From Fischerella sp. JS2 (lineage in GTDB: Bacteria; Cyanobacteriota; Cyanobacteriia; Cyanobacteriales; Nostocaceae): DNA of 64,000 bases. Positions 17,293 to 64,000 of this stretch are shown piece after piece. The notes beneath the pieces are model-generated. The model ran no database searches. It was not told where the DNA came from and saw only the letters and a program-made list of their open reading frames with translations. The DNA lies in NCBI RefSeq assembly GCF_032393985.1, contig NZ_CP135918.1, forward strand, positions 2,232,001 through 2,296,000. Reading direction: 5' to 3'. The position numbers and the translations under genes are program-made. Position 1 is the stretch's first letter. Each line of letters begins with the position of its first letter.

Positions 17293-20200
17293 ATGATCCC
17301 AGTTTTGAATGGCTTACAAGTTCCCCATCACTGTGCAACAGTTGTTGATTTGCTGCGCGATCGCAGTATCACACAACCACACCAGACAGCATTTACTTTC
17401 CTTGAAGACGGAGAAACTCAAGAATCGACGCTGACTTACCATGAATTGGATCAGCGCAGTCGAGCGATCGCATCTCAACTCCAAGCTTTGAACTTAAAAG
17501 GGGAACGTGCCTTACTACTCTATCCGCCAGGACTAGATTACTTAAGTGCTTTTTTTGGTTGTCTCTACGCTGGGGTTGTAGCGGTTCCAGCTTATCCGCC
17601 TCAGAATAAACGCAAAGCACCCAGAATCCAGGCTATCAGCACAGATGCACAGGCTAGCATCGCTCTCACTACAACAGCGATGCTCCCTACATTACAATCC
17701 ATACTTGCACAGCAAACACACCTGGAAAATATACGCTGGCTCGTTACCGACAACCTAGCACAGGGTCTGGAAGATTCTTGGCAACAACCTGATATCAATG
17801 CGGATACCATAGCCTTTCTCCAATACACCTCAGGTTCTACAGGCATCCCCAAGGGAGTTATGCTCAGTCATGGCAACCTGCTGCACAACGCCGCCGCCAC
17901 TTATCAATTCATGAGACATTCACCCAACAGTAAATTTGTCTCCTGGCTACCCCTATACCATGACATGGGACTGATTGGTGGTATTTTGCAACCTTTGTAT
18001 GGCGGTTTTAGTTGCATCTTGATGTCGCCAGCATCTTTTTTGCAACGACCTTTGCGCTGGTTGCAAGCTATTTCTAGATATCAAGGGACAACGAGTGGCG
18101 CTCCTAACTTTGCCTACGAATATTGTATTCAAAAGATTACCCCAGAACAACGCTCTTGTCTTGATCTCAGCAGTTGGAGTGTAGCGTTTAATGGTGCTGA
18201 ACCTGTGCGGCAGGATACTCTAGAGCGATTTGCGCTCACCTTCTCAGAGTGTGGATTTCGTCGGGAAGCCTTCTACCCTTGTTACGGCATGGCTGAAGCA
18301 ACCCTGATGGTTTCTGGTGGCAGCAAGACAGCCTTACCGATTGTGAAAACGGTCCAGAAATCTGCACTTGCAAACAATCAGGTCATTGAAGTTAGCGTTC
18401 AGATACAAGATAAAGATATCCAAACCTTTGTCAGTTGCGGTCAAACTATTCCTCAACAACAAATTGTAATTGCCAATCCTGAAACATTAACACGCTCTTC
18501 ACCAAATCAAGTGGGAGAAATTTGGGTATCAGGACTAAGTATTGGTCAGGGTTATTGGCGTCGGCAAGAGGAAACAGAGCAAACCTTCCGTGCCTACCTC
18601 ACAGATACAGGAGAAGGGCCGTTTTTGCGGACTGGGGATTTAGGCTTTTTGGACAATGGAGAACTCTTCATCACTGGCAGAGCAAAAGATTTAATCATCA
18701 TTCGAGGTCGCAACTTCTATCCCCAAGATATTGAGTTAACCGCAGAACGCAGCCATCCATTATTGCGATCAAGTAGTACAGCTGCTTTTTCAGTTGAGGT
18801 TGATGATGAAGAACATCTGGTCGTCGTGCAAGAATTGGAATTTCGCGCCAAACCGGATATCAATGAAGTCACCACTGCTATTCGTCAAGCAGTGACCGAA
18901 GAACATGAAGTACAAGTTCATGCAGTAGTTTTGATTAAACCAGGTACTATTCCTAAAACTTCCAGTGGCAAAATTCAACGTCGTGCCACCAAAGCAGCTT
19001 TTCTCGCAGGCGAACTGGATGTGGTCGGCAGTAGTATCAGTGAAAATACTGCTTATTTAGGTAAAGAAAACCGCTTACAACGACAAACTCTCTTAGCGCT
19101 GACTCCAGAAGAGTCTCAGCCACTTTTAGAATCTTATCTCAGAGAACAAGTAGCACGCGCCCTTGGTGCCGCACTGAAGGAAATTCACCCGCAACAGCCA
19201 TTAAGCAGCTTGGGACTCGATTCTTTGAGAGTATTTGAGTTAAAAAACCAGATTGAGGCTGACCTAGAAGTCACTGTATCCGTAGCAGACTTCTTTGAAG
19301 GGTTGAGTACGCGATCGCTCTCCACTAAGATACTTACTCAATTAGCAACAACAACTTCCATCCCATCTATATCTGTTACTCAAGTTCAGAAAACTACATC
19401 TGTTCACCCTTTATCTTTCTCTCAGCAGGGATTATGGTTTATCCATCAGTTTGTACCTGATTCGCCTGCATATAACATTCCCATATTGATTAACTGCCAA
19501 GGTGAAGTTAACGAGGCGGTAGTCGCCCAAAGCTTAAATGAAATCATCAGACGTCACGAAGTTTTGCGAACAAACTTTGTGGTGGTGGATGGGCAACCTC
19601 TGCAAGTGATTCAGTCAGCTAGGAGATTAACCTTGCTCACAGAGGATTTACAGCAAGTTATACCCAACCAACGCGCTGAACAAGTACAACGTTTAGCCAG
19701 CGAATTTGCTCAGCAACCATTCGACTTATCCAGTCAACCACTTTTGCGTGCCAAACTACTGCGCTTAGACCAACAAGAGTACACATTGCTCCTCACCCTC
19801 CACCACATCATTGCCGATGGCTGGTCAATCGGAATTCTCATTCAAGAATTGGCAGCACTGTATGCAGCATTCTCTCGTGGAGAACCCTCACCACTGCCGG
19901 AACTGCCTATTCAGTATACAGATTTTGCCTATTGGCAGAGGCAATGGTTGCAAAGCGATCGCATCCAAACCCTGTTGACCTATTGGAAACAGCAGCTGGG
20001 TGGTAAACTGCCTGTCTTGAATCTACCTACAGACCGTCCGCGATCGCCTATCCAAACCTTCCAAGGCGCTCAAGCAAAACTAGTTCTGTCCCCAACCCTG
20101 ACAGCAGAACTGAAAAAACTAAGTCATAGCGAAGGCGCGACCTTGTTTATGACAATGCTTGCGGCTTTCAAAGTCTTACTTTATCGCTATACAGGGCAGA

Positions 20201-22800
20201 CTGATATTTTGGTAGGTTCTCCGATCGCCAATCGTAACCAAACAGAGGTAAAAGCATTAATTGGATATTTTGTCAATGTTTTGGTGCTACGTACAGACCT
20301 AGCCAACCAACCCAGTTTTAGAGAATTGCTCTCCCGGGTAAAATCAACTGCCTTAGAAGCTTATATTCATCAAGACTTGCCTTTTGAGAAGTTAGTCGAG
20401 GAACTACACCTAGATAGAGACCTCAGCTACAATCCCCTCTTCCAAGTCATGTTTGTTCTCCAGAATGTGCCAATACCGAGTCCCAAGTTATCAGATATAT
20501 CCATAACTTGTCAGGAAGGCGAAAACGGCACAGCAAAGTTCGACCTGACTCTATTTGTGGCAGACACAGATCATGGATTGGTGGTAACAGCTGAATACAA
20601 CACTGATTTGTTTAATGCCGATACCATTCATCGGCTGCTAGGGCATTTCCAGACATTGCTCACAGGGATTGTCAACAATCCCGATCAGTGCATTGCAGAT
20701 TTACCTTTACTCACAGCACCTGAAAAACAACAACTTTTAGTTGACTGGAATGATACCAAAACAGAGTATCCGCAAAATCTGTGCGTTCATCATTTGTTTG
20801 AGGAGCAGGTAGAACGAACACCCGATGCGATCGCTGTTGTCTTTAACAAAGAAACATTCACCTACCGAGAATTAAATCAAAGAGCCAATCAAATTGCTCA
20901 TAGCTTGCAACAATTGGGTGTGAAACCAGATGTGGTCGTTGGTATTTGCATGGAGCGATCGCTCTTAATGGTGATTGGTATCTTAGCCATCCTCAAAGCG
21001 GGTGGTGCTTATTTACCTCTAGATCCCGCCTATCCTCAAGAGCGTTTGGCATTGATGTTGGCAGATGCTGGTGTAAAAGTGTTACTCACTCAACAACATT
21101 TAGTTAAAAAACTACCGCCACACCAAGCGCAAGTTATATGCCTAGACACAGACAGTGAAACTTTTGCTGCTCACAACCAAGAGAATCTAGTGGGTGAAGT
21201 TAAACCAGAAAATCTCGCCTATGTCATCTATACCTCTGGTTCTACAGGCATACCCAAAGGGGTAATGAATACTCATCTGGGTTTATGCAATCGTTTGTTG
21301 TGGATGCAAGATGCTTATCAATTAACACCAGCAGATAGAGTTTTACAGAAAACACCTTTTAGCTTTGATGTCTCTGTCTGGGAATTCTTCTGGCCTTTGT
21401 TGACAGGCGCAATCCTAGTTTTAGCCAAACCCGAAGGTCACAAAGATGCTAGCTATCTAGTCGAACTGATTGCTCAGGAACAAATTACCACACTGCATTT
21501 TGTTCCCTCAATGCTGCAAGTATTCTTAGAAGCACCAGGATTAGAGAACTGTCAGAGTCTCAAACGTGTCATTTGTAGTGGAGAAGCTTTAGCTTTTGAT
21601 CTACAAGAACGCTTCTTTGAGTATTTAGATGCAGAATTATACAATCTTTATGGACCCACCGAAGCCGCCATTGATGTCACAGCCTGGCACTGTCAACGGG
21701 GTAGCAACGAAAAAATAGTTCTTATCGGTCGACCGATTGCCAATACCCAGATATATATATTAGATAGAAATCTTCAACCTGTCCCTATCGGAGTTCCGGG
21801 TGAGTTGCATATTGGTGGTGTGGGATTGGCACGAGGCTATCTAAATAGACCTGAATTGACAGAAGAAAAGTTCATTCCCAACCCCTTGACCCATTTTGAA
21901 TTACCGATTCTAGATTCTCAACTGGGGGATTGTAGTAAAAATCCAGAAGATTGCGATCGCACGCAATTTAGTAATCCAAAATCCGTCTTGGAAAGTTCTG
22001 ATCAAAGGAGACCTCCGCTCAGACTTTCCGCAAAATCTCAAAATCTAAAATTTAATCGCCTTTACAAGACAGGGGATTTAGCACGTTACCGTCCTGATGG
22101 GAACATCGAATTTCTGGGAAGAATTGACCACCAAGTGAAAATTCGCGGCTTCCGCATCGAACTAGGAGAAATTGAAGCAGTGCTGGGACAACACCCACAG
22201 GTACGGGAGGTAGTTGTGATCGCCACAGAGGATAGACTCAGTGAACGCCGTTTAGTTGCCTATGTGGTTCCCAATCAAGATCATGCACCTTCTATTGATC
22301 AATTACGCGATCGCCTCCGAGAAAAGCTACCTGAATATATGGTTCCCTCTGCTTTTGTGATCTTAGATGCATTACCACTCACACCTAACGGCAAAGTAGA
22401 TCGCCACGCCTTACCTGCTCCTGATAGCTTGCGTCCCGAGTTAGCATCTACATATCAACCTCCCCAGTCCCAGATAGAACAAGAAATAGCTAAAGTTTGG
22501 CAAACAGTACTGCATCTAGAAAAGGTAGGCGTCAACGATAACTTCTTTGACCTTGGCGGTAATTCATTATTGATGGTTCAGGTTACTAATAAACTGCAAG
22601 CTATTTTTCAGCGGAATTTGTCAGTTGTAGCCATGTTTCAACATCCAACGATAAATTCCTTGGCCCAATATTTAAGCCAGCAGCCAGAGGATGTACCTGC
22701 TTTTAGGTCAATGCACGATCGCGCTCAAAAACAAATGGAAGTGCTAAATCAACGAAAAAATCTCTGGATAAAACAAAATAAAAAGACTCGTAATCAGTGA
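17293..22800 (+). CDS. FAAL-ACP-C-A(Ser)-PCP loading NRPS
   Basis: A 1,835-residue first enzyme of the line. Domains: fatty acyl-AMP ligase (about 1-575; YTSGSTGIPKGVMLSHGN near 178, PLYHDMGLIG near 219, KTSSGKIQRR near 557), ACP with GLDSL (serine about 641), condensation domain (about 705-1130, HHIIADGWS near 838), adenylation domain (about 1165-1700) and PCP with LGGNSL (about 1756). FAAL activates a free fatty acid and loads it on the ACP, so the product should be N-acylated. My read of the adenylation pocket is D-V-W-H-I-S-L-I-D, nearly the standard serine code. A repeat-derived insert of about 55 residues sits before RLYKTGDLARY. The ATG at 17293 is chosen over one at 17230, because homology starts at MIPVLNGL. 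Confidence 0.9.
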   Translation: MIPVLNGLQVPHHCATVVDLLRDRSITQPHQTAFTFLEDGETQESTLTYHELDQRSRAIASQLQALNLKGERALLLYPPGLDYLSAFFGCLYAGVVAVPAYPPQNKRKAPRIQAISTDAQASIALTTTAMLPTLQSILAQQTHLENIRWLVTDNLAQGLEDSWQQPDINADTIAFLQYTSGSTGIPKGVMLSHGNLLHNAAATYQFMRHSPNSKFVSWLPLYHDMGLIGGILQPLYGGFSCILMSPASFLQRPLRWLQAISRYQGTTSGAPNFAYEYCIQKITPEQRSCLDLSSWSVAFNGAEPVRQDTLERFALTFSECGFRREAFYPCYGMAEATLMVSGGSKTALPIVKTVQKSALANNQVIEVSVQIQDKDIQTFVSCGQTIPQQQIVIANPETLTRSSPNQVGEIWVSGLSIGQGYWRRQEETEQTFRAYLTDTGEGPFLRTGDLGFLDNGELFITGRAKDLIIIRGRNFYPQDIELTAERSHPLLRSSSTAAFSVEVDDEEHLVVVQELEFRAKPDINEVTTAIRQAVTEEHEVQVHAVVLIKPGTIPKTSSGKIQRRATKAAFLAGELDVVGSSISENTAYLGKENRLQRQTLLALTPEESQPLLESYLREQVARALGAALKEIHPQQPLSSLGLDSLRVFELKNQIEADLEVTVSVADFFEGLSTRSLSTKILTQLATTTSIPSISVTQVQKTTSVHPLSFSQQGLWFIHQFVPDSPAYNIPILINCQGEVNEAVVAQSLNEIIRRHEVLRTNFVVVDGQPLQVIQSARRLTLLTEDLQQVIPNQRAEQVQRLASEFAQQPFDLSSQPLLRAKLLRLDQQEYTLLLTLHHIIADGWSIGILIQELAALYAAFSRGEPSPLPELPIQYTDFAYWQRQWLQSDRIQTLLTYWKQQLGGKLPVLNLPTDRPRSPIQTFQGAQAKLVLSPTLTAELKKLSHSEGATLFMTMLAAFKVLLYRYTGQTDILVGSPIANRNQTEVKALIGYFVNVLVLRTDLANQPSFRELLSRVKSTALEAYIHQDLPFEKLVEELHLDRDLSYNPLFQVMFVLQNVPIPSPKLSDISITCQEGENGTAKFDLTLFVADTDHGLVVTAEYNTDLFNADTIHRLLGHFQTLLTGIVNNPDQCIADLPLLTAPEKQQLLVDWNDTKTEYPQNLCVHHLFEEQVERTPDAIAVVFNKETFTYRELNQRANQIAHSLQQLGVKPDVVVGICMERSLLMVIGILAILKAGGAYLPLDPAYPQERLALMLADAGVKVLLTQQHLVKKLPPHQAQVICLDTDSETFAAHNQENLVGEVKPENLAYVIYTSGSTGIPKGVMNTHLGLCNRLLWMQDAYQLTPADRVLQKTPFSFDVSVWEFFWPLLTGAILVLAKPEGHKDASYLVELIAQEQITTLHFVPSMLQVFLEAPGLENCQSLKRVICSGEALAFDLQERFFEYLDAELYNLYGPTEAAIDVTAWHCQRGSNEKIVLIGRPIANTQIYILDRNLQPVPIGVPGELHIGGVGLARGYLNRPELTEEKFIPNPLTHFELPILDSQLGDCSKNPEDCDRTQFSNPKSVLESSDQRRPPLRLSAKSQNLKFNRLYKTGDLARYRPDGNIEFLGRIDHQVKIRGFRIELGEIEAVLGQHPQVREVVVIATEDRLSERRLVAYVVPNQDHAPSIDQLRDRLREKLPEYMVPSAFVILDALPLTPNGKVDRHALPAPDSLRPELASTYQPPQSQIEQEIAKVWQTVLHLEKVGVNDNFFDLGGNSLLMVQVTNKLQAIFQRNLSVVAMFQHPTINSLAQYLSQQPEDVPAFRSMHDRAQKQMEVLNQRKNLWIKQNKKTRNQ
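21990..22029. repeat. Palindromic insert inside the Ser adenylation domain
   Basis: A hairpin with arms GGAAAGTTCTGA and TCAGACTTTCC (one bulge) lies within a longer foreign segment (about 21,890-22,055) that keeps the reading frame. The encoded residues are absent from the other adenylation domains of the cluster at this place. Confidence 0.6.
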
Positions 22801-22946
22801 AAATATAGCACTTCTCATTTGGATGAAATACAGCTTTATCCGTGTGCATCTGTGTTCGCTTTTTCCCTGGTTTGAAGATTTTTCTTAGCAGAACAATTTC
22901 AAGGTAGCAGATAATTCGTTCATATTTGAACAAAGCAGGAAAGACA

Positions 22947-25900
22947 ATGGAAGGAATTGTAATTATTGGTATATCAGGACGCTTCCCTGGAGCCAAAAAT
23001 ATTGAAAAATTTTGGCAAAATTTGCACTCAGGAGTAGAATCAATTTCTCTGTTTACAGATGAAGAGTTAATCGCTGCTGGAATCGAACCTGGATTATTAA
23101 ATAACTCTAATTATGTGAAAGCAGGTGCAATCTTAGAAGATATAGATTTATTTGATGCTGCTTTTTTTGGTTTTAATCCTAAAGAAGCTGAAATCACCGA
23201 TCCACAACACCGTCTGTTTTTAGAATGTGCATGGGAAGCACTAGAAAACGCTGGCTATGATTCTATGAGGTGTGAAAGTCGGATTGGTGTTTATGCAGGT
23301 GCTAGTTTAAATAACTATTTATCATTTAATATAAATCGTGACCAAATCGGGTCAGCGAATAGTTTTCAAAAGTTGATTGGTAACGATAAAGATTTTCTGA
23401 CTACTCGTGTTTCTTATAAATTAAATTTATCTGGTCCGAGTGTCACAATTCAAACAGCTTGTTCTACTTCCCTAGTAGCAATAACTCTGGCTTGCCAAAG
23501 CTTATTAAACTACCAATGCGATATGACATTGGCAGGTGGAGTTTCAATTAGAGTGCCACAAAAAACAGGTTATTTATATCAAGAAGGAGGAATTTTATCG
23601 CCAGATGGGCACTGTCGTGCCTTTGATGCCAAAGCACAGGGAACAATTATTGGCAATGGTGTAGGAGTGGTAGTTTTAAAGCGTCTTGCAGATGCGATCG
23701 CAGATGGGGATCACATATATGCAGTAATTAAAGCAGCTGCGATCAACAACGATGGCTCTGGTAAAATTGGTTACACCGCACCCAGCGTCAACGGTCAAGC
23801 AGAAGTCATAGCAGAAGCGCTGGCTTTGGCGGGAGTGGAACCGGAAAGCATCAGCTATATTGAGGCACACGGCACAGGCACTAATTTGGGTGATCCCATT
23901 GAAATCAATGCCCTGAGCAATGTTTTTCGCGACTATACTGACAAAAAAGGCTTCTGTGCCATAGGTTCTGTCAAAACGAATATCGGTCATTTAGATGCTG
24001 CTGCCGGAGTAGCAGGGGTCATCAAAACCGCCCTGGCTCTCCAGCATAAATTGATACCACCTAGCCTGAACTTTCAGCAGCCCAATCCTGAGATTGATTT
24101 TGCCAATAGTCCTTTTTATATCAATACAAAACCCACACAATGGCAAGCTGAAAAAACTCCCCGCCGTGCAGGTGTCAGTTCCTTAGGAATTGGTGGCACT
24201 AATGCCCATGTAATTCTGGAAGAAGCACCAGTTGTAGAGACGAGAGGTGGCACGTCTCTACACTCTCGTCCTTGGCAGTTGTTACTAGTTTCTGCCAAAA
24301 CAGAATCTGCCCTGGAAAATGCGACTCAAAATCTCACTCACCATCTGAGTGAACATCCGGAAGAAAACTTGGCAAATGTGGCTTATACCTTGCAAGTGGG
24401 ACGCAGGGAATTTGACTATCGTCGCATGTTGGTATGCCAGGATATTGCAGATGCTGTCAATACATTAAATAGGCACGATGTACAAAGAGTTTTAACCCAC
24501 TTCCAAGAACCGCTAGAACGTCCCATCGCCTTCATGTTCCCGGGACAAGGCGTTCAGTATGTGGAAATGGGTAAAGAACTTTACCAGACTGAGGTGATAT
24601 ACCGTGAACATCTGGATCATTGCTGCTTGATGCTCAAACCTTTCTTAGGGGTTGATTTGCGATCACTATTCTATCCCGATGAAAATCAGGTGCAAGCAGC
24701 AGAAAAACTCAAACAAACCAGTATCGCTCAAAGCGCATTGTTTGTAATTGAGTATGCGCTGGCTCAGTTGTGGATGTCCTGGGGGATTTCTCCCAGCGCC
24801 ATGATTGGCCATAGTATCGGCGAATATGTCGCGGCTTGCCTTGCTGGTGTGATGTCCTTGGAAGAAGCTTTAACTCTGGTGGCGATGCGGGGACAACTGA
24901 TGCAGCAACTACCAACAGGTGCAATGCTCTCTGTTGCACTCCCAGAAGAGGAAGTCAAAACCCTACTTAATCAAGAGTTATCTTTAGCTGCTAGCAACGC
25001 TCTCCATTTGTGTGTAGTTTCGGGAAGTCATGACGCCATCAACACTTTTGCAGCACAATTGCAAGCCAAAGGCGTAGAATGTCGCCGCCTGCATACTTCC
25101 CACGCCTTCCATTCCCAGATGATGGAACCGATCTTGGAACCATTCATTGCTGAAGTTAAAAAGGTAAAACTCAATCCTCCCCAGATACCTTTCATCTCCA
25201 ATGTCACAGGAACTTGGATCACCCCAGAAGCAGCCACAGATCCCAACTATTGGGCAAAACATTTACGCTCTCCTGTTCGCTTTAGTGCGGGAATATCTGA
25301 ATTACTGCAACAACCAAATCGGATTCTCCTAGAAGTAGGACCAGGACGTACTTTGTGTACACTCACCAAACAGCATTCCCACCAAGCAGCAGGACAGGTG
25401 GTTTTACCAAGCTTACGCCACCCCCAGGACAAACAATCGGATGTGGCTTTTATACTCAACGTCTTGGGTAGACTCTGGTTGGCGGGAGTATCGATCAATT
25501 GGTCTGGTTTTTATGCTCACGAACAACGTCAGCGCGTACCATTACCAACTTACCCCTTTGAGCGTCAACGTTACTGGATTGAACCCCAATTAACAGTAGA
25601 AAAATTTGCACAAGCAGAAAATAAACTTGGTAAAAAATCCAATATAGCTGACTGGTTTTATATTCCTTCATGGAAACAAATTCCTCTAGTCAAAACTGGA
25701 GAGAAAAAGTCTACTTGTTATCTAGTTTTTGTTGATGAATGCACCATAGGTTCGCAAATTGTTCAACATTTGCAACAAACAGGACAAGATGCGATCGCAG
25801 TCCTAGCAGGTGCGGAATTTAGCCAAGTTAATCATAACACTTACACAATCAATCCTGCCCAACAAGATGACTATCACACTTTACTCCAAGCTATTCACCA

Positions 25901-29008: not shown

Positions 29009-29014
29009 TTCATT

Positions 29015-33786: not shown

Positions 33787-33787
33787 T

Positions 33788-40372: not shown

Positions 40373-40374
40373 AA

Positions 40375-51961: not shown

Positions 51962-51968
51962 TAGCATA

Positions 51969-52053
51969 AGTCCGTTTAAACGGACTCAAAGACTTTCCTA
52001 GTCAGATTTATCTGACTTTCGCTATCAGCCAAGAAATTTATTTCTTGGCGGGA
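51969..52053 (+). repeat. REP-like palindromic repeat cluster
   Basis: Three palindromes in a row: AGTCCGTTTAAACGGACT (51969-51986), AGTCAGATTTATCTGACT (52000-52017) and arms GCCAAGAAAT / ATTTCTTGGC (52028-52049) followed by GGGAC. The last, with its GCTATCAGCC lead, is a diverged copy of the elements at 16161 and 16605. Confidence 0.7.
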
Positions 52054-52154
52054 CGAAAAGTTGGTGCAAGATATGAATCAATATCAAATTCTCTAGAAGC
52101 TGCTGAGAACGTAGCGTAGTTGCTGTGAATCAGAATCGGTGGGGATTTTTTGCT

Positions 52155-54221: not shown

Positions 54222-55980
54222 ACGACGGTCTATCATTAGCAGCAATTAACAGTCCCTGCTCTTGTGTAGTTTCAGGAACAACGGATGCTATCAGCGAACT
54301 ACAAAAACAACTAGCTTCTCAAAACATCGAATCTCGGGTTTTGCACACATCTCATGCATTTCATTCTCATTTGATGCAACCAATGTTGGGGAGTTTGTGC
54401 AGTTGCTGAGAAACGTCCAACTTCAGCCTCCCCAGATTCCTTTGATTTCCAACCTCACAGGCACTTGGATTAATCCTCATGAAGCGACAAATCCTGAGTA
54501 TTGGGGTCAGCATCTGCGACAAACAGTGAGATTTTCTTCCGGTGTATCTCACCTATTACAGCAACATGACGGCATTTTCCTAGAAGTAGGACCAGGACGA
54601 ACCCTCAGCACACTCACAACCCAACATCTTAACGGTAATCAAAAACAAAAACATTTGGTTTTAACTTCCCTACATCATCCCCAACAACAACAATCAGATG
54701 TTGCTTGGTTGTTACAGACATTAGGTCGGTTGTGGTTGTTTGGAGTCGAAATCGATTGGTCGGAATTTAATAGCCATCAGCAACGTCATCGCTTACCTTT
54801 ACCCACCTACCCCTTTGAACGCCAAAGATACTGGATTGAACCAGAAAAACAACAACAACAGCATCACTACCATCCTACCCCTGCACTTGGCAAAAATCAG
54901 ACATTTCGCAGTGGTTCTACATACCTTTCTGGAAACCATCTTTACTACCAGTACAAATTGAAGTCCAACAACAAACAACGCCAAAATCTTGTGTTTTGCT
55001 GTTTGTTGATGATTATGGCTTGGGTAACAAACTCAAAAAACAACTCCAACAACAAAATCAAGATGTGATTACTGTCAAAGTTGGACATAACTTGACAAAG
55101 TTAAACGAGTTTGAATATACCCTCAATCCTCAACAACCTGATGATTATGATGCTTTAATTCAAGAACTTTTCAAACAACAAAAGTTACCAAATAAGATTG
55201 TTCATTTGTGGAGTATCACACCTTGTTGTCAACAACAATTAGAATTTGAAAAAGTTGAACAAGCTCTAACAAGGGGATTTTATAGTTTACTATTTCTGGC
55301 GAAAGCTTTCGCAAGACAGACAACAAACGAATGATGATTTTTCTATTACTGTTATTTCTAATCACTTGCAGCCAGTAACACCGACTGAGTTAGTTTCTCC
55401 AGAGAAAGCAACTTTACTTGGGGCAATTAAAGTTATTCCTCAAGAGTATGCAAATATCACCTGTCGCAGTATTGATGTTTTTGTTCCTGAAAATGGAAGT
55501 TGGCAAGAACAAAAACTTGTAGAAAGTTTGCTTGGGGAATTGAGTATTTCTAGTTGTGAGAAAGTGATTGCTTACCGAGGTGGCAATCGCTGGGTTCAAT
55601 GTTTTGAGCCGGTGCGCCTTGAGCAGGCTAAGAGTAATACGCCACGATTGAAACAAGGGGGAGTCTATCTGATTACAGGTGGACTTGGAGGTATTGGACT
55701 TGTTTTGGCTGAGTATTTGGCACAAAATTACAAAGCGAAACTGGTGCTGATTGGACGAAGAGCTTTTCCTAACCAACAGGAGTGGTCTGAATGGTTACTG
55801 AGTCACGACTTCAATGATGTCATTAGCTGCAAGATTCGTAAACTCCAACAACTTCAACAGTTGGGTGCGGAGATTTTGGTTCTCGGTGCTGATGTGACTG
55901 ATTTACAACAAATGCAGCAGGCGATCACTTCTGCACATTCCACTTTTGGTCTACTCAATGGGGTTTTCCATGCTGCTGGA
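53781..55980 (+). repeat. 2.2 kb direct repeat, copy 1 (PKS 3 AT-KR)
   Basis: Near-identical to 58787-60989. By eye only two substitutions and five indels separate the copies. Similarity to PKS 5 begins further upstream, at 53533 (63206 there). Confidence 0.85.
54206..55365 (+). pseudogene. PKS 3, middle part: broken AT end and KR structural region
   Basis: The AT C-terminal half (HTSHAFHSHLM, malonyl type; VGPGRTLSTL) and the KR structural subdomain (VDDYGLGNKLKKQL) are present but spread over three frames. Breaks relative to PKS 4: one G lost at 54387-54390, one A lost at 54892-54896, and GACA duplicated at 55315-55322. Frames covering it are 54206-54409, 54262-55068 and 54996-55334; none starts at a natural initiation site. 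No sequence is missing apart from these indels. Confidence 0.75.
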
Positions 55981-56841
55981 GTTCCAGGAGGCAGCGTAAT
56001 TCAGCGAAAAACCCGGGAAGAAGCGGAAAGTATATTAGCTCCTAAACTAAAGGGTACACTGGTTCTTGATGCTGTCCTCAAAGATACTCAACTAGATTTC
56101 TTTATCTTAACCTCATCAATTAATTCAATTCTCGGGGGATTTGGACAAGTAGATTATTGTGCGGCTAATGCTTTTCTTGACGCTTTTGCTCACTGCAATA
56201 TCACAAAATCTCACACATTCATTACAAGTATCAACTGGGATACTTGGCAAGAAGTTGGGATGGCGGTAGACACAGCATTGTCCAAACAACTCCAAGAATT
56301 GCGTGCAGAAAATCTCAAACAAGGAATATTGCCCCAAGAAGGTATAGATGCTTTGACACGTATTTTAGAAAGTACAATACCTCAAGTTGTGGTATCTCCC
56401 TCTGATTTCCTGAATTTATTTCAGCAGCACAATTCTGATCAAAAAATACTCATCTCGGAAGTTTTAGAGACAATCAATAAATCACACGCAACACATCCAC
56501 GACCCGAATTAAGTAATGATTTTGTTGCACCTAGAAATGACATTGAGCAAAAGCTTGCTGACATTTGGCAAAAAATTCTCGGAATTGAGCGCATAGGAAT
56601 TCATGATAATTTCTTTGAACTGGGTGGTGATTCTCTCATAGGCATTCAAGTTATTTCTCAAGTAAATAAGGCGTTTGATTTAAATGTTCCTATTGCTAAG
56701 CTTTATGAATGCCCAACTGTCAGTTCTATGGCAAAAATTTTGATTCCGGAAGAAGATGAAAAAACGAATTTTGAACAACGATTGCTGCGAGGACAAAGAA
56801 GAAGACAGATGAAAATGCAAAAAATGCTAGACGAGAGTTAG
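55366..56841 (+). CDS. PKS 3, 3' part: KR and ACP
   Basis: The frame after the last break encodes 491 residues: KR with TGGLGGIG (about 104), HAAG, SSINS and DYCAANAFLD, all catalytic residues present; then an ACP with ELGGDSLIGI (about 428). It reads as the end of PKS 3 and has no natural start (TTG at 55366). The KR C-terminal half resembles PKS 1, not PKS 2 or PKS 4. The tail is basic (LLRGQRRRQMKMQKM), like other C-termini of this cluster, and may be a docking element. Confidence 0.82.
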   Translation: MQPVTPTELVSPEKATLLGAIKVIPQEYANITCRSIDVFVPENGSWQEQKLVESLLGELSISSCEKVIAYRGGNRWVQCFEPVRLEQAKSNTPRLKQGGVYLITGGLGGIGLVLAEYLAQNYKAKLVLIGRRAFPNQQEWSEWLLSHDFNDVISCKIRKLQQLQQLGAEILVLGADVTDLQQMQQAITSAHSTFGLLNGVFHAAGVPGGSVIQRKTREEAESILAPKLKGTLVLDAVLKDTQLDFFILTSSINSILGGFGQVDYCAANAFLDAFAHCNITKSHTFITSINWDTWQEVGMAVDTALSKQLQELRAENLKQGILPQEGIDALTRILESTIPQVVVSPSDFLNLFQQHNSDQKILISEVLETINKSHATHPRPELSNDFVAPRNDIEQKLADIWQKILGIERIGIHDNFFELGGDSLIGIQVISQVNKAFDLNVPIAKLYECPTVSSMAKILIPEEDEKTNFEQRLLRGQRRRQMKMQKMLDES

Positions 56842-57184
56842 TCTTATGTAAATTGCAAAGTTTTATTTAAGCCAATTTGATTGGGATGAAAAGGAATTTT
56901 ATTTTGATATTAAATAGGACTTACAGAAAATTATGAAAAACGAACCGCGAAGGACGCAAAGAACGCAAAGTCAAGAGGTTTAGGAGATATTTGACGCTCT
57001 ACACTGATAAATCCAGGTTAGGAAAATCCCAAAGTTTTCAAAACACAAAACGAAGTAGCTCTGATTAACACTCTGCGTTCCTTTGCGTTAACCTCTGCGC
57101 TCCTCAGCGTTTAAAAATAAAAACATTTGGGATACTCCCCCAGGTTGTAACAATGATTGATTTCTAGTTACTTTGAAAGAGAAA
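56842..57184. other. Intergenic spacer with inverted repeat debris
   Basis: A 343 bp gap between PKS 3 and PKS 4. It contains CGCGAAGGACGCAAAGAACG at 56,947 and a CTCTGCGTTCCTTTGCGTTA stretch at 57,070 that could pair with it, both resembling dispersed repeats. No gene is visible. Confidence 0.5.
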
Positions 57185-60100
57185 ATGATAAGTACTTATA
57201 AAATACTGGAACAAGCATCAGATTTAGACATAGCCATAGTAGGAATGGCTGGTCGATTTCCAGGTGCGAAGAATATCAATGATTTTTGGCATAATCTTCA
57301 GAATGGAATCGAATCTATTTCTTTTTTTTCAGAGCAAGATTTGGTATCTTTAAATGTTGAAGATACTGTTTTCAACGACCCAAATTATGTGAAAGCAGCA
57401 CCTGTACTAGAAGATATAGAGTTTTTTGATGCTAGATTCTTTGGCTTTAGTCCCAGGGAAGCTGAAGTGATTGATCCCCAACACCGTTTCTTCATGGAAT
57501 GTGCTTGGGAGGCTCTTGAAAATGCTGGTTATGACCCTGAAAAGTATGAAGGTTTGATAGGGGTTTATGCTGGTACAAGCACTAATACTTACTTTTTTAA
57601 TAATATTTATAACAATTCTAATTTGAATGATCTTGCCAATACATATGCTCTTAATAAGGATTTTCTCACTACGAATATCTCATATAAATTAAATCTTACT
57701 GGCCCAAGTGTAGGTGTCCAAACTTACTGCTCAACATCATTAGTAGCTGTACACTTAGCCTGTAAAAGTTTGCTGGATGAAGAGTGTGATATGGCTTTGG
57801 CAGGTGGAGTTGCCATCAGTGTGCCACAAAAGTCAGGCTATCTCTATCAAGAAGACGGAATTTTATCTCCTGATGGTCACTGCCGCGCTTTTGATGCTAA
57901 AGCACAAGGCACAATTTTTGGTAGTGGTCTCGGAATTGTCGTTTTAAAAAGATTTAAAGATGCTGTTACTGATGGTGACTGTATTCATGCAGTGATCAAA
58001 GGTTCAGCTATCAACAACGACGGTTCTTTAAAAGTCAGCTATACAGCACCAAGTGTAGATGGTCAGGCAGAGGTGATTGTAGAAGCTTTAGCCAATGCTG
58101 GCGTGGAAGCTGATGATATCTCATACATAGAAACTCACGGAACTGGAACACCTACTGGCGATCCTGTGGAAATCGCTGCGCTTACCAAGGCTTTTCGTAC
58201 CTTTACACAGAAAAATGGCTTCTGTGCGATCGCTTCGGTAAAACCAAATATTGGACATTTAGATACAGCAGCTGGTATAGCAAGTCTTATCAAGACCATC
58301 TTAGCATTAAAGCACAAACAAATACCCCCTAGTTTAAATTTTGAGACTCCCAATCCTCAGATTGATTTTGCTAATAGCCCCTTTTACGTCAATACTAAAC
58401 TTACCGATTGGAAAACTAACCGTACTCCACGCCGGGCTGGCGTTAGTTCCTTAGGCTTTGGTGGAACTAATGCTCACATCATCCTTGAAGAAGCCCCGGA
58501 AATAAAACATTGTGAAGAATCTCGACCTTGGCAATTGCTATTATTGTCAGCCAAAACTAGTTCGGCACTTGAAAGTGCAACTGCGAATCTGGTTACGTAC
58601 TTAAAACAGCATCCAGATACAAATCTAGCCAATGTAGCATACACTCTTCAGGTTGGTCGCAGGGCTTTTAACTATCGCCGGATGTTGGTTTGCCAGAATG
58701 TTGAAGATGCTGTAACCGCCTTGGAAACACTGGAGGAGAAACGGGTTTTAACTGCATACCAAGAACAAAGAGAACAACCGATCATATTCATGTTCTCAGG
58801 TCAAGGAAGCCAATATGTAAATATGGGGCGCCAACTTTACGAAGTAGAACCAACATTTCGCCAGCATGTAGATGATTGCAGTCAGATACTCAAACCCCAC
58901 CTGGGAGTAGATATCCGCAATATACTTTATCCAACTGCTCAACAAAGCGAACAAGCATCACAACAACTACAACAAACAGCAATCACACAGAGTGCATTAT
59001 TTGTCATAGAATACGCCCTCGCCCAGTTGTGGATGTCTTGGGGTGTGCTACCTACGGCAATGATTGGTCACAGTATCGGGGAGTATGTAGCAGCAACAAT
59101 TGCTGGGGTGTTCTCAACAGAAGATGCCTTGGCAGTAGTCGCAGCAAGGGGTAAACTCATGCAGCAACTACCAACTGGCAGTATGCTAGCAATTGGGGTT
59201 GGGGAAAAACAAGTGCAGCCTCTGTTAGACGACGGTCTATCATTAGCAGCAATTAACAGTCCCTGCTCTTGTGTAGTTTCAGGAACAACGGATGCTATCA
59301 GCGAACTACAAAAACAACTAGCTTCTCAAAACATCGAATCTCGGGTTTTGCACACATCTCATGCATTTCATTCTCATTTGATGCAACCAATGTTGGGGGA
59401 GTTTGTGCAGTTGCTGAGAAACGTCCAACTTCAGCCTCCCCAGATTCCTTTGATTTCCAACCTCACAGGCACTTGGATTAATCCTCATGAAGCGACAAAT
59501 CCTGAGTATTGGGGTCAGCATCTGCGACAAACAGTGAGATTTTCTTCCGGTGTATCTCACCTATTACAGCAACATGACGGCATTTTCCTAGAAGTAGGAC
59601 CAGGACGAACCCTCAGCACACTCACAACCCAACATCTTAACGGTAATCAAAAACAAAAACATTTGGTTTTAACTTCCCTACATCATCCCCAACAACAACA
59701 ATCAGATGTTGCTTGGTTGTTACAGACATTAGGTCGGTTGTGGTTGTTTGGAGTCGAAATCGATTGGTCGGAATTTAATAGCCATCAGCAACGTCATCGC
59801 TTACCTTTACCCACCTACCCCTTTGAACGCCAAAGATACTGGATTGAACCAGAAAAACAACAACAACAGCATCACTACCATCCTACCCCTGCACTTGGCA
59901 AAAAATCAGACATTTCGCAGTGGTTCTACATACCTTTCTGGAAACCATCTTTACTACCAGTACAAATTGAAGTCCAACAACAAACAACGCCAAAATCTTG
60001 TGTTTTGCTGTTTGTTGATGATTGTGGCTTGGGTAACAAACTCAAAAAACAACTCCAACAACAAAATCAAGATGTGATTACTGTCAAAGTTGGACATAAC

Positions 60101-60631
60101 TTGACAAAGTTAAACGAGTTTGAATATACCCTCAATCCTCAACAACCTGATGATTATGATGCTTTAATTCAAGAACTTTTCAAACAACAAAAGTTACCAA
60201 ATAAGATTGTTCATTTGTGGAGTATCACACCTTGTTGTCAACAACAATTAGAATTTGAAAAAGTTGAACAAGCTCTAACAAGGGGATTTTATAGTTTACT
60301 ATTTCTGGCGAAAGCTTTCGCAAGACAACAAACGAATGATGATTTTTCTATTACTGTTATTTCTAATCACTTGCAGCCAGTAACACCGACTGAGTTAGTT
60401 TCTCCAGAGAAAGCAACTTTACTTGGGGCAATTAAAGTTATTCCTCAAGAGTATGCAAATATCACCTGTCGCAGTATTGATGTTTTTGTTCCTGAAAATG
60501 GAAGTTGGCAAGAACAAAAACTTGTAGAAAGTTTGCTTGGGGAATTGAGTATTTCTAGTTGTGAGAAAGTGATTGCTTACCGAGGTGGCAATCGCTGGGT
60601 TCAATGTTTTGAGCTTATAGGTGCGCCTTGA
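57185..60631 (+). CDS. PKS 4, 5' part: KS-AT and KR structural region (frameshifted)
   Basis: An 1,148-residue open part: KS with cysteine about 182 (TYCSTS), ETHGTG and NIGHL; AT with GHSIGE and HTSHAFHSHLM (malonyl type); and the KR structural subdomain ending VIAYRGGNRWVQCFE. At 60615-60619 TTATA stands where PKS 3 has a single C, a net gain of four bases, and the frame stops. The catalytic KR and ACP continue at 60621. The ATG at 57185 is preferred over a TTG at 57173. The KS-AT linker (EIKHCEESRPW) lacks the palindrome. From 58787 on, the gene is near-identical to PKS 3. Confidence 0.85.
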   Translation: MISTYKILEQASDLDIAIVGMAGRFPGAKNINDFWHNLQNGIESISFFSEQDLVSLNVEDTVFNDPNYVKAAPVLEDIEFFDARFFGFSPREAEVIDPQHRFFMECAWEALENAGYDPEKYEGLIGVYAGTSTNTYFFNNIYNNSNLNDLANTYALNKDFLTTNISYKLNLTGPSVGVQTYCSTSLVAVHLACKSLLDEECDMALAGGVAISVPQKSGYLYQEDGILSPDGHCRAFDAKAQGTIFGSGLGIVVLKRFKDAVTDGDCIHAVIKGSAINNDGSLKVSYTAPSVDGQAEVIVEALANAGVEADDISYIETHGTGTPTGDPVEIAALTKAFRTFTQKNGFCAIASVKPNIGHLDTAAGIASLIKTILALKHKQIPPSLNFETPNPQIDFANSPFYVNTKLTDWKTNRTPRRAGVSSLGFGGTNAHIILEEAPEIKHCEESRPWQLLLLSAKTSSALESATANLVTYLKQHPDTNLANVAYTLQVGRRAFNYRRMLVCQNVEDAVTALETLEEKRVLTAYQEQREQPIIFMFSGQGSQYVNMGRQLYEVEPTFRQHVDDCSQILKPHLGVDIRNILYPTAQQSEQASQQLQQTAITQSALFVIEYALAQLWMSWGVLPTAMIGHSIGEYVAATIAGVFSTEDALAVVAARGKLMQQLPTGSMLAIGVGEKQVQPLLDDGLSLAAINSPCSCVVSGTTDAISELQKQLASQNIESRVLHTSHAFHSHLMQPMLGEFVQLLRNVQLQPPQIPLISNLTGTWINPHEATNPEYWGQHLRQTVRFSSGVSHLLQQHDGIFLEVGPGRTLSTLTTQHLNGNQKQKHLVLTSLHHPQQQQSDVAWLLQTLGRLWLFGVEIDWSEFNSHQQRHRLPLPTYPFERQRYWIEPEKQQQQHHYHPTPALGKKSDISQWFYIPFWKPSLLPVQIEVQQQTTPKSCVLLFVDDCGLGNKLKKQLQQQNQDVITVKVGHNLTKLNEFEYTLNPQQPDDYDALIQELFKQQKLPNKIVHLWSITPCCQQQLEFEKVEQALTRGFYSLLFLAKAFARQQTNDDFSITVISNHLQPVTPTELVSPEKATLLGAIKVIPQEYANITCRSIDVFVPENGSWQEQKLVESLLGELSISSCEKVIAYRGGNRWVQCFELIGAP

Positions 60632-60989
60632 GCAGGCTAAGAGTAATACGCCACGATTGAAACAAGGGGGAGTCTATCTGATTACAGGTGGACTTGGAGG
60701 TATTGGACTTGTTTTGGCTGAGTATTTGGCACAAAATTACAAAGCGAAACTGGTGCTGATTGGACGAAGAGCTTTTCCTAACCAACAGGAGTGGTCTGAA
60801 TGGTTACTGAGTCACGACTTCAATGATGTCATTAGCTGCAAGATTCGTAAACTCCAACAACTTCAACAGTTGGGTGCGGAGATTTTGGTTCTCGGTGCTG
60901 ATGTGACTGATTTACAACAAATGCAGCAGGCGATCGCTTCTGCACATTCCACTTTTGGTCTACTCAATGGGGTTTTCCATGCTGCTGGA
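58787..60989 (+). repeat. 2.2 kb direct repeat, copy 2 (PKS 4 AT-KR)
   Basis: Twin of 53781-55980. It begins at TTCATGTTCTCAGG and ends at GCTGCTGGA inside the KR HAAG motif. This copy keeps an open frame through the AT, unlike copy 1. Confidence 0.85.
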
Positions 60990-61847
60990 ATCGTTGGCGG
61001 CAAGTCTTTTGCAGCCATTGACAAGATAACTAAAACAGATTGTGAACAGCAATTCCAAGCAAAAGTATACGGACTTATTGTTTTAGAGAAAGTATTAAAG
61101 CATACACAACTTGACTTTTGTTTATTGCTGTCTTCCTTATCATCTGTTTTAGGAGGATTAGGATTTGTTGCCTACTCAGCAGCAAATAATTTCATGGACA
61201 CTTTTGTACACCAATATAATCAAAACCATCCCGTTTCATGGATTAGCGTCAGCTGGGATAGTTGGCAACTTGAAACAGAAAATCAACAAAGTACATCTTT
61301 AGGCGCAAGTGTGAGTGAATTCGCATTCAATGCCCAAGAAGGTCTAGAAGCTTTGCAAAGAATTTTGAACTATAGTCAATTCAATCATGTAGTTGTCTCT
61401 ACTGGAGAACTGCAAGCTAGGATTGACCAATGGATTGATCTGAAATCTTTCCCACAACAAACAAATTTATTATCACTTCATCCCAGACCCGATTTACAAA
61501 ATCCCTACGTTCCTCTCACAAATGAAATTGAACAAACAATTGCCAATATATGGCAAGAGGTTCTGGGGATCAAAGATGTAGGTCTCTATGATAATTTCTT
61601 TGAATTAGGTGGAGATTCGCTATTAATAATTCAGGTTCGCAGCAAACTTCTGAAAACGCTAAACAAAAATTTATCAATCGCTGATCTATTTGAATATTCG
61701 ACTATCAGTGCTTTGGCAGAATATCTCGGCGAAAAACAGGTTGAACAGCCAACATTTCAGCAAGCTGATGAACGTGCCAAGAAAAAAGAAGAGGCTATGC
61801 AAGAAAAAAGGCAATTAATGAAACAAAGGAGGAAGGCAGATGGATAA
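60621..61847 (+). CDS. PKS 4, 3' part: KR and ACP
   Basis: A 408-residue continuation of PKS 4: KR with TGGLGGIG (about 24), HAAG, SSLSS and AYSAANNFMD, so Ser, Tyr and Asn are kept and the domain looks active; ACP with ELGGDSLLII (about 343). Its first third is identical to PKS 3, but after HAAG it changes to sequence of the PKS 2 type (KVYGLIVLEKVLK, GGLGFVAY, VVSTGELQARI), so the KR is a chimera. It has no natural start (GTG at 60621). The stop codon overlaps the next start (ATGGATAA), so PKS 5 is translationally coupled. Confidence 0.83.
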   Translation: MRLEQAKSNTPRLKQGGVYLITGGLGGIGLVLAEYLAQNYKAKLVLIGRRAFPNQQEWSEWLLSHDFNDVISCKIRKLQQLQQLGAEILVLGADVTDLQQMQQAIASAHSTFGLLNGVFHAAGIVGGKSFAAIDKITKTDCEQQFQAKVYGLIVLEKVLKHTQLDFCLLLSSLSSVLGGLGFVAYSAANNFMDTFVHQYNQNHPVSWISVSWDSWQLETENQQSTSLGASVSEFAFNAQEGLEALQRILNYSQFNHVVVSTGELQARIDQWIDLKSFPQQTNLLSLHPRPDLQNPYVPLTNEIEQTIANIWQEVLGIKDVGLYDNFFELGGDSLLIIQVRSKLLKTLNKNLSIADLFEYSTISALAEYLGEKQVEQPTFQQADERAKKKEEAMQEKRQLMKQRRKADG

Positions 61848-63819
61848 TCAACAAATCCACAATTCCGTCAAAGGCATAGCCGTAATCGGTATGGTTGGTC
61901 GTTTTCCAGGAGCCAAAAGTGTTGATGAATTTTGGCAGAATCTATGCAATGGCAAAGAGTCTATTTCTTTTTGGAGTGATGAAGAATTAGAGCTTGCAGG
62001 CATAAACTCAGCATTGCTGCGTGACCCTCATTATGTCAAAGCTGATGCCCGTCTGTCAGACATTGAAATGTTTGACGCTGCTTTCTTCGATTTCTCGCCC
62101 AGAGAAGCCGAAATTATGGATCCCCAACACCGGATTTTGCTGGAGTGTGCCTGGGAAGCGTTGGAAAATGCTGGTTATGACCCTGGTGCAGACCCAGGTT
62201 TAACTGGTGTTTACGTGGGGACTAACCTGAGTATCTATATGCTGAATAAACTCAGTGCCAATCCCGAACTGAGTAAATCAATCGGTTCTTCGATTTTCTT
62301 TAGTAATGTTCAAGATTTTGCAGCTACACGAATTTCATACAAATTAAACCTGAGAGGGCCAAGTATCAACATTAGCACCGCTTGTTCTACGTCATTGGTA
62401 GCTGTTCACTCAGCCTGCCAAGGATTGATGAACTATGAGTGCGATATGGCTTTGGCAGGTGGTGTTTCAATCCAGTCTCTACAACAAGAAGGTTATTTCT
62501 ATCAAGAAGGGGGAATGACTTCTCCCGATGGTCACTGTCGCGCCTTTGATGCTAAAGCACAGGGGACTGTTTTCGCCGACGGGGTAGGCATTGTTGTACT
62601 CAAAAGACTAGAAGATGCTTTGGCAGATGGCGATCGCATTCACGCAGTCATCAAAGGTTCAGCTATTAATAACGATGGTGCTGCTAAGGTAGGTTACACC
62701 GCTCCTAGTGTAGGTGGTCAAGCCTTAGCCATCGCTGATGCTGTTGCGATCGCTGGGTTTAATCCAGAGACAATTACTTACATCGAAACTCACGGAACCG
62801 GTACAGCCTTAGGAGATCCGATCGAAATTAGTGCCCTCAAGAAGGTGTTTGCAGCCCGCACCAGTCAGAAGGGATTTTGTGCCATTGGTTCGGTAAAGAC
62901 TAATGTGGGACATCTGAATATAGCTGCTGGTGTGACTAGTTTAATCAAAACAGTCATGGCACTCAAACACAAGATGATTCCACCCAGTTTACATTTTGAA
63001 CAACCAAATCCTGAAATAGACTTCGCTAACAGTCCCTTTTACGTCAATACTACGTTATCAGAATGGAAAACTGATGGGATTCCTCGCCGCGCTGGCGTCA
63101 GTTCTTTTGGTATTGGAGGGACTAATGCCCATGTGATTTTGGAAGAAGCACCAGTTGTAGAGACGTGCCATGGCACGTCTCTACACTCTCGTCCTTGGCA
63201 ATTGTTGGTGCTTTCAGCTAAAACCGAAACCGCTTTGCAAACTGCTACAGCTACTTTGGCTTCTCATCTCCAGCACCACCCTCAGTTGAATTTAGCTGAT
63301 GTGGCTTACACGCTGCAAGTGGGTCGGCGAAGTTTCGATTATCGCCGCATAGTAGTTTGCCACTCCCTTGAAGACGCACTCAAAGTCCTAACAGACCAAG
63401 ATCCGCAACGTGTTTTCACTCACCAGCATAAACCCGGTCAATGTCCAGTCGTGTTCATGTTCTCAGGTCAAGGAAGCCAATATGTAAATATGGGGCGCCA
63501 ACTTTACGAAGTAGAACCAACATTTCGCCAGCATGTAGATGATTGCAGTCAGATACTCAAACCCCACCTGGGAGTAGATATCCGCAATATACTTTATCCA
63601 ACTGCTCAACAGCGAACAAGCATCACAACAACTACAACAAACAGCAATCACACAGAGTGCATTATTTGTCATAGAATACGCCCTCGCCCAGTTGTGGATG
63701 TCTTGGGGTGTGCTACCTACGGCAATGATTGGTCACAGTATCGGGGAGTATGTAGCAGCAACAATTGCTGGGGTGTTCTCAACAGAAGATGCCTTGGCAG
63801 TAGTCGCAGCAAGGGGTAA
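61840..63819 (+). CDS. PKS 5, 5' part: KS and start of AT (frameshifted, runs off window)
   Basis: It starts with the ATG that overlaps the stop of PKS 4. The true homology is KS (cysteine about 182 in TACSTS; ETHGTG; NVGHL), the palindrome-bearing KS-AT linker, and the AT up to about 63,605. There two A are missing relative to PKS 3 and PKS 4 (CAACAGCG for CAACAAAGCG), and the last 70 residues are read out of frame. From 63206 to the window end the DNA is near-identical to PKS 3. KS details ([25 protein letters not shown]) show that it is a distinct module, not a second copy of PKS 3. Confidence 0.83.
63157..63184. repeat. 28-base perfect palindrome in KS-AT linker of PKS 5
   Basis: Arms GTAGAGACGTGCCA and its exact complement, read in frame as [10 protein letters not shown]. 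It has the same length, ends and site as in PKS 1 and PKS 3, with a different but still self-complementary centre. Confidence 0.85.
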
Positions 63820-64000
63820 ACTCATGCATGCAACAACTACCAACTGGCAGTATGCTAGCAATTGGGGTTGGGGAAAAACAAGTGCAGCCTCTGTTAGACG
63901 ACGGTCTATCATTAGCAGCAATTAACAGTCCCTGCTCTTGTGTAGTTTCAGGAACAACGGATGCTATCAGCGAACTACAAAAACAACTAGCTTCTCAAAA
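63607..64000 (+). pseudogene. PKS 5 AT continuation, broken, cut by window edge
   Basis: The AT active site ([14 protein letters not shown]) resumes one frame over after the two-base loss near 63,610. The frame is lost again at about 63,826, where CATGCATGCAACAAC replaces CATGCAGCAAC (net four bases more). The final 170 bases match the AT of PKS 3 and PKS 4 in the third frame. The rest of the module lies beyond the window. Confidence 0.75.

Follow-up and report, generated by a model that had tools for sequence, protein, structure and literature searches.

In kirromycin biosynthesis, the terminal β-alanine is made by KirD and added by KirB, the Dieckmann cyclase KirHI closes the pyridone, and the ring double bond arises through the P450 enzyme KirOI (PMC5818483, PMC4979870). 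Dieckmann cyclases of this class use a Cys-Asp-His triad, and some cis-acting thioesterases (TEs) perform Dieckmann closures with Ser (PMC10956176). For puwainaphycin, aminotransferase and monooxygenase domains were jointly assigned to the 3-amino-2-hydroxy tailoring (PMC4219810). Here, we describe a hybrid nonribosomal peptide synthetase (NRPS) and polyketide synthase (PKS) assembly line in a stretch of 64,000 nucleotides from Fischerella sp. JS2 (the window; G000:C1:2232001-2296000), whose host genome G000 is a single contig of 7.02 Mb. As an assembly line it belongs to an ordinary class, with a release end that is both unusual and conserved. From its sequence and by analogy to kirromycin, we tentatively propose a complete and maintained line whose chain would be released by Dieckmann condensation as a 3-acyl-piperidine-2,4-dione and then be oxidized by a P450 toward a pyridone, a reading that we place just short of an even balance.

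A conserved release end in a cyanobacterial family

The large open reading frames (ORFs) of the line run on the plus strand from 17230 to 71702, 7.7 kb past the window end (about 54.5 kb in total), and the flank beyond 64000 was taken from the same contig with coordinates continued on the window scale. Domains were assigned by Pfam scans, in which the condensation (C) and adenylation (A) domain matches reached E values of 1e-120 and below and so were not chance, and the decarboxylase PanP and the luciferase-like monooxygenases (LLMs) by NCBIfam profiles with cut-offs. Six NRPS and five PKS extension modules follow a loading module with a fatty acyl-AMP ligase (FAAL), in the order FAAL-acyl carrier protein (ACP), Ser, malonate, LLM, a basic-looking residue with an epimerase (E), Orn, β-Ala, malonate, LLM, Gly, three malonates, β-Ala and TE (Table 1). 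The FAAL was assigned from AMP-binding and DIP2-like Pfam matches and from its position. As in FAAL-initiated NRPS/PKS lines, the FAAL-ACP is joined by C-A-peptidyl carrier protein (PCP) and ketosynthase (KS)-acyltransferase (AT)-ACP units with core motifs and by a release domain.

The original prediction, whose start at 17293 lies within the first ORF, had claimed a large co-directional line with this module order as far as the malonates after Gly and with Ser, Orn, β-Ala and Gly pockets, and all of this was recovered. The three or more malonates that it counted after Gly are exactly three PKS modules, the amino acid plus malonate units do recur in the FAAL-started line, and the TE that it looked for further to the right was found in a C-A-PCP-TE protein. 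PanP, eight frame breaks and near-identical internal repeats were absent from it. Hybrid clusters of the orphan kind abound in cyanobacteria, so that novelty in module order carries little weight by itself. It is the conserved release end that is informative, and not the order of residues, which varies.

To follow this end, the terminal PCP-TE was used as a query against 217 genomes of the window's own family. It matched 78 places in 71 genomes at an identity of 54% or more, whereas the remaining matches were listed at 48% or less. The matches were counted by hand, and 72 of the 78 places were read, comprising 70 loci (L169-L238), a cluster in G210 and a second cluster of the host genome. Within the 70 loci, the nucleophile was Cys in 69 and Ser in one, the terminal A pocket had the form VDW..AN in 67, GDW..AN in two and an Ala-type form in one, and a P450 was the next recognized gene in 67. 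The last PKS module was visible in 38 loci, in which the ketoreductase (KR) carried Gln at the catalytic Lys in 28 cases (motifs QSYN in 22, QSDY in three, and QSDS, QSDN and QSSH in one each, the last being L236), was absent in nine and was intact in one (L235); PanP was present in the same locus in 33 of these 38. The G210 cluster combined a Cys-TE with the pocket VDWIISLAN and a Gln KR, and the second cluster of the host a Cys-TE with IDWVISLAN and no KR. Among 20 control TEs, hand-picked near the top of the rows with 48% identity or less, one per genome, 19 had Ser and one (L248) had Cys.

In a FastTree phylogeny built from 96 distinct TEs and rooted on a single Ser control, the Cys TEs other than L248 all fell into one clade of 75 tips (support 0.92); L236 lay inside this clade, and L248 was its sister. 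L236 (G173:C12:174000-188500) has a degenerate last KR and would predict an Ala-derived tetramate if the Dieckmann proposal is right. In L248 (G141:C113:9500-18000), the Cys-TE follows C-A-A-KR-carrier with the pocket VAITLGASG, a region that is possibly an α-keto acid module. In a phylum-wide sample of 386 genomes, nine matched at E 1e-110 or better, six from the same family and three from other families of the order.

The cluster DNA matched both other sampled genomes of the genus, G069 (contig C81 at 92-97% over 10.6-53.7 kb, and C84 with the tail at 92-95%) and G070 (C93 at 95-97%, and C90 with the tail at 92-95%; weaker-matching G070 contigs were left unassigned). Apart from this genus scan, the best 80 of 589 PanP loci across named genomes were kept, in a scan from which close kin of the window may be missing, and the 25 of these that were annotated, with 10-kb flanks, were all cyanobacterial, including Fischerella, Scytonematopsis, Nostoc, Desmonostoc, Calothrix, Brasilonema, Argonema and Leptolyngbya. 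PanP stood directly after the carrier domain of an NRPS/PKS module in 24 of them, the exception being L027, where it comes after the Ser-TE of another cluster. Because the flanks are 10 kb, just eight loci reached the TE behind PanP, and its nucleophile was Cys in all eight. An LLM preceded PanP in three of the 25 named loci and in seven further clusters chosen on that criterion (G024, G081, G124, G138, G151, G193 and G210; L025 is the same record as G138, and L026 the same as G024).

Upstream of the release end, the pockets of these relatives vary, with presumed Asn, Asp, Thr, Ser, Ala, Gly, Cys and β-Ala types together with DIWEMVADD. The latter pocket, whose substrate could not be read, recurs in 13 of the 25 named relatives (L018, L019, L021-L024, L029, L033, L034, L038, L039, L041 and L042) and in G124. 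The nearest module order was that of G193, with β-Ala, Gly, malonate-LLM-Gly-PanP, three malonates, a methyltransferase (MT) and β-Ala-TE, followed by P450s, a short-chain dehydrogenase/reductase (SDR), a sucrase/ferredoxin-like (Suc/Fer) protein and a MATE exporter. The cluster belongs to a cyanobacterial family that is widespread and has its 3' half in common. The earlier claim of a line with no recognized product holds in that none turned up in the open-access literature searched, but the line is not unique, as the family shares that half. The search for a cyanobacterial product of this kind was limited to open-access literature, with MIBiG and most subscription papers outside it, and the term undescribed is therefore provisional.

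The second family cluster of the host genome (G000:C1 ~5975000-5997000; L016 and L017) contains Cys-, Ser- and β-Ala-type pockets, PanP, a KS and a KS-AT-ACP without KR, and ends in a β-Ala-type module with Cys-TE and three P450s. It is split over many ORF fragments, and one TAG falls within a C domain.

Table 1 Features of the assembly line and its right flank, on the coordinate scale of the window
Feature	Position	Strand	Remarks
FAAL-ACP-C-A-PCP	17230..22800	+	Fatty acid loading and Ser module; Ser pocket DVWHISLID
PKS KS-AT-KR-ACP	22926..27584	+	Malonyl-type AT (HAFH); KR intact (K-S-Y-N, GGTGGIG)
LLM 1	27923..29008	+	MupA/Atu3671 family; TIGR04020, 507 bits (cut-off 244)
C-A-PCP-E	29015..33786	+	Basic-looking pocket DAEDIGTVV; frame break ~31764, second ORF from 31801
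C-A-PCP-C-A-PCP	33686..40372	+	Orn pocket DVGEIGSID; β-Ala-type pocket VDWVVSLAD
PKS KS-AT-KR-ACP	40375..45078	+	KR degenerate (GDPVKGLG, N to Y)
LLM 2	45458..46513	+	TIGR04020, 494 bits; closest solved sequence PuwE 6ket
C-A-PCP	46695..50054	+	Gly pocket DILQLGLIW
PanP, pyridoxal phosphate (PLP)-dependent aspartate 1-decarboxylase	50267..51961	+	TIGR03799, 628.6 bits (cut-off 606.1)
PKS KS-AT-KR-ACP	52125..56841	+	KR motifs intact; four frame breaks in near-identical repeat
Repeat copy 1	53781..55980	+	99.4% identical to 58787-60989
PKS KS-AT-KR-ACP	57173..61847	+	KR motifs intact; one frame break in repeat
Repeat copy 2	58787..60989	+	First 1.06 kb (58787-59846) 99.2% identical to 63454-64513
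Last PKS KS-AT-KR-ACP	61840..64000, on chromosome to 66438	+	KR dead
MT	66577-67344	+	Past window
C-A-PCP-TE	67593-71702	+	β-Ala-type pocket VDWVISLAN; Cys-TE; past window
P450	72041-73420	+	Past window
SDR	from 74405	+	Past window
Suc/Fer protein	from 75342	+	Past window
MATE exporter	76503-77879	+	Past window

Pockets, ketoreductases and monooxygenases along the line

The residues of the six A pockets were derived by aligning the domains with the first A domain of the line. We take DVWHISLID to specify Ser, DILQLGLIW to specify Gly, and VDWVVSLAD and VDWVISLAN to be of the β-Ala type. The pocket DAEDIGTVV is basic-looking and may specify Lys, and the E domain of its module, the D-residue module of the original prediction, carries the motif HHLAVDG. 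PanP within the cluster is a likely local supply of β-alanine. When all six codes were sought in the open-access literature, the single one to turn up was DVGEIGSID, given as ornithine in PMC3992020.

The HHxxxD motif was present in six C domains and one E domain, the C domain of the 46695 protein lacking the final G. Carrier Ser motifs were found in the ten proteins searched, that of the FAAL-linked ACP being seen by eye, and all five KS domains had Cys-His-His. The motifs GHSIG and HAFH occurred in all three of the five ATs that were checked, and presumably mark malonyl-CoA specificity.

Both the K-S-Y-N residues and the cofactor motif were intact in the module-1 KR and in the first two KRs after Gly. 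In the KR before LLM 2, the cofactor motif was degenerate and Tyr replaced Asn, and in the last KR the catalytic Lys was changed to Gln and the cofactor motif was lost. The malonate module at 40375..45078 would thus be expected to leave its β-ketone, as an earlier call of an unreduced malonate had it, although the module does hold a KR domain.

These patterns were compared across 71 distinct KRs from the annotated loci. Eleven of them precede an LLM, and the cofactor motif was broken in nine, the two intact ones being the module-1 KRs of G000 and G069, which are orthologs. The broken KRs fit α-carbon hydroxylation of a β-ketoacyl-ACP, in which that carbon is acidic; the LLM outcome may instead be a Baeyer-Villiger oxidation. 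The best Protein Data Bank sequence match of LLM 2 was PuwE (6ket, E 6e-114). Gln or Glu occupied the Lys position in 18 KRs, none of which kept the cofactor motif, and what came next was a TE before any other KS in ten, the locus end in eight and another KS in none. Among the remaining 42 KRs, none of them before an LLM, Lys was kept in 41 and the cofactor motif in 40, and they were followed by another KS (39) or the locus end (three) and never by a TE.

Frame breaks and the integrity of the line

Two stretches, 52-67 kb and 28.9-34.8 kb, were checked frame by frame and contained eight frame breaks, located at 31.76 kb, 54.2-55.3 kb (four), 60.6 kb, 63.6 kb and, past the window, 64.15 kb. All except that at 31.76 kb lie inside near-identical internal repeats. 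The repeats are parts of three successive PKS modules at 99% identity, with the remainder of the modules less alike, and reflect recent duplication or gene conversion. The copies differ by five gaps versus two substitutions and by five gaps versus one (three and one substitutions by blastn), a ratio that fits uncorrected consensus errors better than decay. In the drafts of G069 and G070, the contigs end at window positions 53.7 and 53.35 kb, immediately before the repeat, suggesting that the congeners share it, and the repeat is apparently common to the genus.

In G069, the gene with the 31.76-kb break is open as a single ORF of 1619 aa, and on contig C81, the only one examined at gene level (as far as the first KS after Gly), the same genes are open up to the contig end. 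Pairwise dN/dS to G069 was 0.07-0.25 over 18 ORFs, five repeat-zone ORFs being without an ortholog in the G069 pieces used. A suspected break at ~33.7 kb was dismissed, as G069 has the same gene overlap of 100 nt. The congener genomes contain numerous copies, at roughly 75-92% identity, of a short intergenic element located at ~57026-57139. Two ORFs that closely precede the line, at 13709-14203 and 14419-15999 (the larger of 526 aa), matched no Pfam family at E 1e-5.

If the frame breaks were real, the cluster would be decaying and would make nothing in this strain. Such a loss could account for eight breaks in the assembly, above all for the one outside the repeats, but the other seven sit where gaps outnumber substitutions and, from the copy comparison, look like consensus errors. 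Because seven of the breaks sit in repeats, the genes are open in G069 and dN/dS is low, we regard decay as quite unlikely; a very recent loss confined to this strain may have occurred. A cluster both silent and decayed had been named in the original prediction as something that would refute it; as to decay, the breaks and dN/dS values do not bear this out.

Proposed release chemistry and comparison with known systems

The domains, pocket residues, dead KRs, Cys triad, PanP and P450, and their conservation, are read from the sequence; from them we infer the substrate meaning of the pockets, colinearity, the hydroxylation sites, ring closure and oxidation. A fatty acid would be loaded by the FAAL, Ser added, and the malonate unit reduced and LLM-hydroxylated, after which a D-basic residue, Orn and β-Ala would be incorporated. 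The next malonate would be kept as a ketone and α-hydroxylated by the second LLM, followed by Gly, two reduced malonates and one unreduced malonate, and a terminal β-Ala made locally by PanP would be added last. The constant end, with its dead or absent KR, β-Ala-type pocket and Cys-TE, predicts a β-ketoacyl-β-alanyl thioester on the Cys-TE, and the kirromycin precedent taken together with it leads us to propose Dieckmann release and P450 oxidation. In this scheme, the N-(β-ketoacyl)-β-alanyl chain would be transferred to the Cys of the TE, C-C bond formation would release the 3-acyl-piperidine-2,4-dione, and the adjacent P450 would oxidize it toward a 3-acyl-4-hydroxy-2-pyridone.

Several findings weigh against this chemistry. 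Since the Cys TEs form essentially one clade, the associations at the release end are not independent and come near to a single event in the phylogeny. The sister L248 combines Cys with a pocket other than the β-Ala type, L236 combines a Ser nucleophile with an Ala-type pocket inside the clade, and the last KR of L235 is intact. Alternatively, the enol could be capped by the MT that precedes the terminal module. Both by sequence and by Foldseek (with a weak structure model, pLDDT 64), the TE matched ordinary type I TEs, the nearest being AB3403, whose product is uncharacterized in the portion of PMC11298585 drawn on, and the Pks13 TE. NcmC was absent from the 35 sequences of the TE sequence search and from the 50 Foldseek matches listed, and this comparison with solved sequences and folds gives no support to a TrdC/NcmC cyclase. 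The spacing of the triad was ruled out as a mark of a cyclase, as Cys and Ser TEs overlap in range. An Asp was aligned 27 residues after Cys in all 83 Cys-TE rows (duplicates included) and likewise in the 21 Ser rows. No confirmation of the β-Ala meaning of the VDW pockets came from the open-access literature searched; solved β-amino acid A domains hold the β-amine with Asp235, versus position 236 for the Asp of the VDW pockets, and the passages of that review drawn on contain no β-alanine pocket (PMC11253843). General Pfam and NCBIfam scans, in which no profile aimed at that family was run, recognized no stand-alone cyclase of the TrdC/NcmC/KirHI type.

The type I fold and sequence of the TE, together with the nucleophilic side chains of the predicted chain, would also suit a Cys-TE that releases conventionally, by macrolactamization or macrolactonization (with the hydroxyl of Ser, the side-chain amine of Orn or of the basic residue, or a hydroxyl of the polyketide part as acceptor) or by hydrolysis, with the β-keto amide left open or enol-methylated by the MT at 66577. 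Other closures by Cys TEs are known as well, namely of the β-lactam by SulM and of the β-lactone by ObiF (PMC11298585, PMC6668435). We hold such a release to be a real possibility, clearly below an even balance, for it leaves unexplained why the dead or absent last KR, the β-Ala-type pocket and the P450 are retained together while the upstream residues vary. As 3-acyl-1,3-diones chelate metals, an acyl-dione or pyridone product could also, with α-hydroxy-β-keto units and Orn or basic amines, serve metal uptake as a siderophore or metallophore, and in Anabaena PCC 7120 a different NRPS/PKS cluster (all2641-all2649) is regulated by FurA and has been linked to siderophores (PMC4005646). That role is improbable for the present line, whose exporter is of the MATE type and around which no TonB receptor, ferri-siderophore transporter or N-hydroxylase was found in the nine ORFs at 0.9-16 kb or from the TE to 80.4 kb. 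The Anabaena cluster, described with seven NRPS and two PKS genes, is also a misfit as a known homolog (PMC4005646).

Returning to Dieckmann release, a broader proposal follows for the family, which we consider possible but somewhat under an even balance: a cyanobacterial lineage would have evolved its own route to a kirromycin-type (dihydro-)pyridone head, with an integrated Cys-TE as Dieckmann cyclase, and dozens of species would attach different lipopeptide-polyketide tails to this one head, the constant pharmacophore of an undescribed class. The conserved release cassette makes about a third of the sampled family genomes (71 of 217) a single hypothesis of one head group and many tails. If true, it would contribute a six-ring Dieckmann release that relies on Cys and acts in cis, and would help to mine and name a large orphan family.

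Among described systems, puwainaphycin and minutissamide share the FAAL start, the hybrid PKS-NRPS and an LLM of the same family (PMC4219810), whereas the line here differs in the order of its residues, places several PKS modules far into the chain and has PanP, a terminal β-Ala-type module and a Cys-TE. A puwainaphycin-type synthetase, with PKS-aminotransferase-monooxygenase and a 3-amino-2-hydroxy acyl start, does not apply, as Pfam scans of the line found no aminotransferase domain beyond a weak Aminotran_5 match (1.3e-5) inside the PLP decarboxylase. Tychonamide, pahayokolide and floridanemamide come from PKS-NRPS lines of cyanobacteria in which monooxygenases are associated with 3-amino-2-hydroxy units, but floridanemamide differs in its α-keto acid starter, aminotransferase, 11 predicted amino acids and dual TEs, and β-alanine does not occur in the main text of that paper (PMC13252402). 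AB3403 of Acinetobacter baumannii (4zxh) has the same C-A-PCP-TE arrangement, Cys nucleophile and Asp in the usual place (PMC11298585), and was the best sequence match to the TE and, among the matches listed, that with the highest TM-score (0.70), at a Foldseek identity of 23%. In Cys TEs of the SulM/ObiF type, the triad Asp follows strand β7 (position II), with a Gln-Cys-Asn motif in SulM (PMC11298585); this β-lactam/β-lactone type was set aside, as the family here has its Asp in the usual place and the nucleophile motif G-x-C-[YF]-G.

The closest likeness in release logic is to the elfamycins kirromycin and aurodox, with which the line would share a dedicated aspartate decarboxylase (here PanP, over its NCBIfam cut-off), a last PKS module that leaves the β-ketone (here by the loss of Lys and cofactor motif in the last KR), a terminal β-Ala-type NRPS module fed by a β-ketoacyl chain, a Cys-type acyl enzyme and a P450, which acts on the ring in kirromycin and is predicted to do so here. 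Kirromycin differs in that KirHI stands alone, whereas the candidate cyclase here is the integrated TE of a cyanobacterial line with a PLP-dependent PanP, a FAAL start, PKS modules with their own ATs and a lipopeptide tail.

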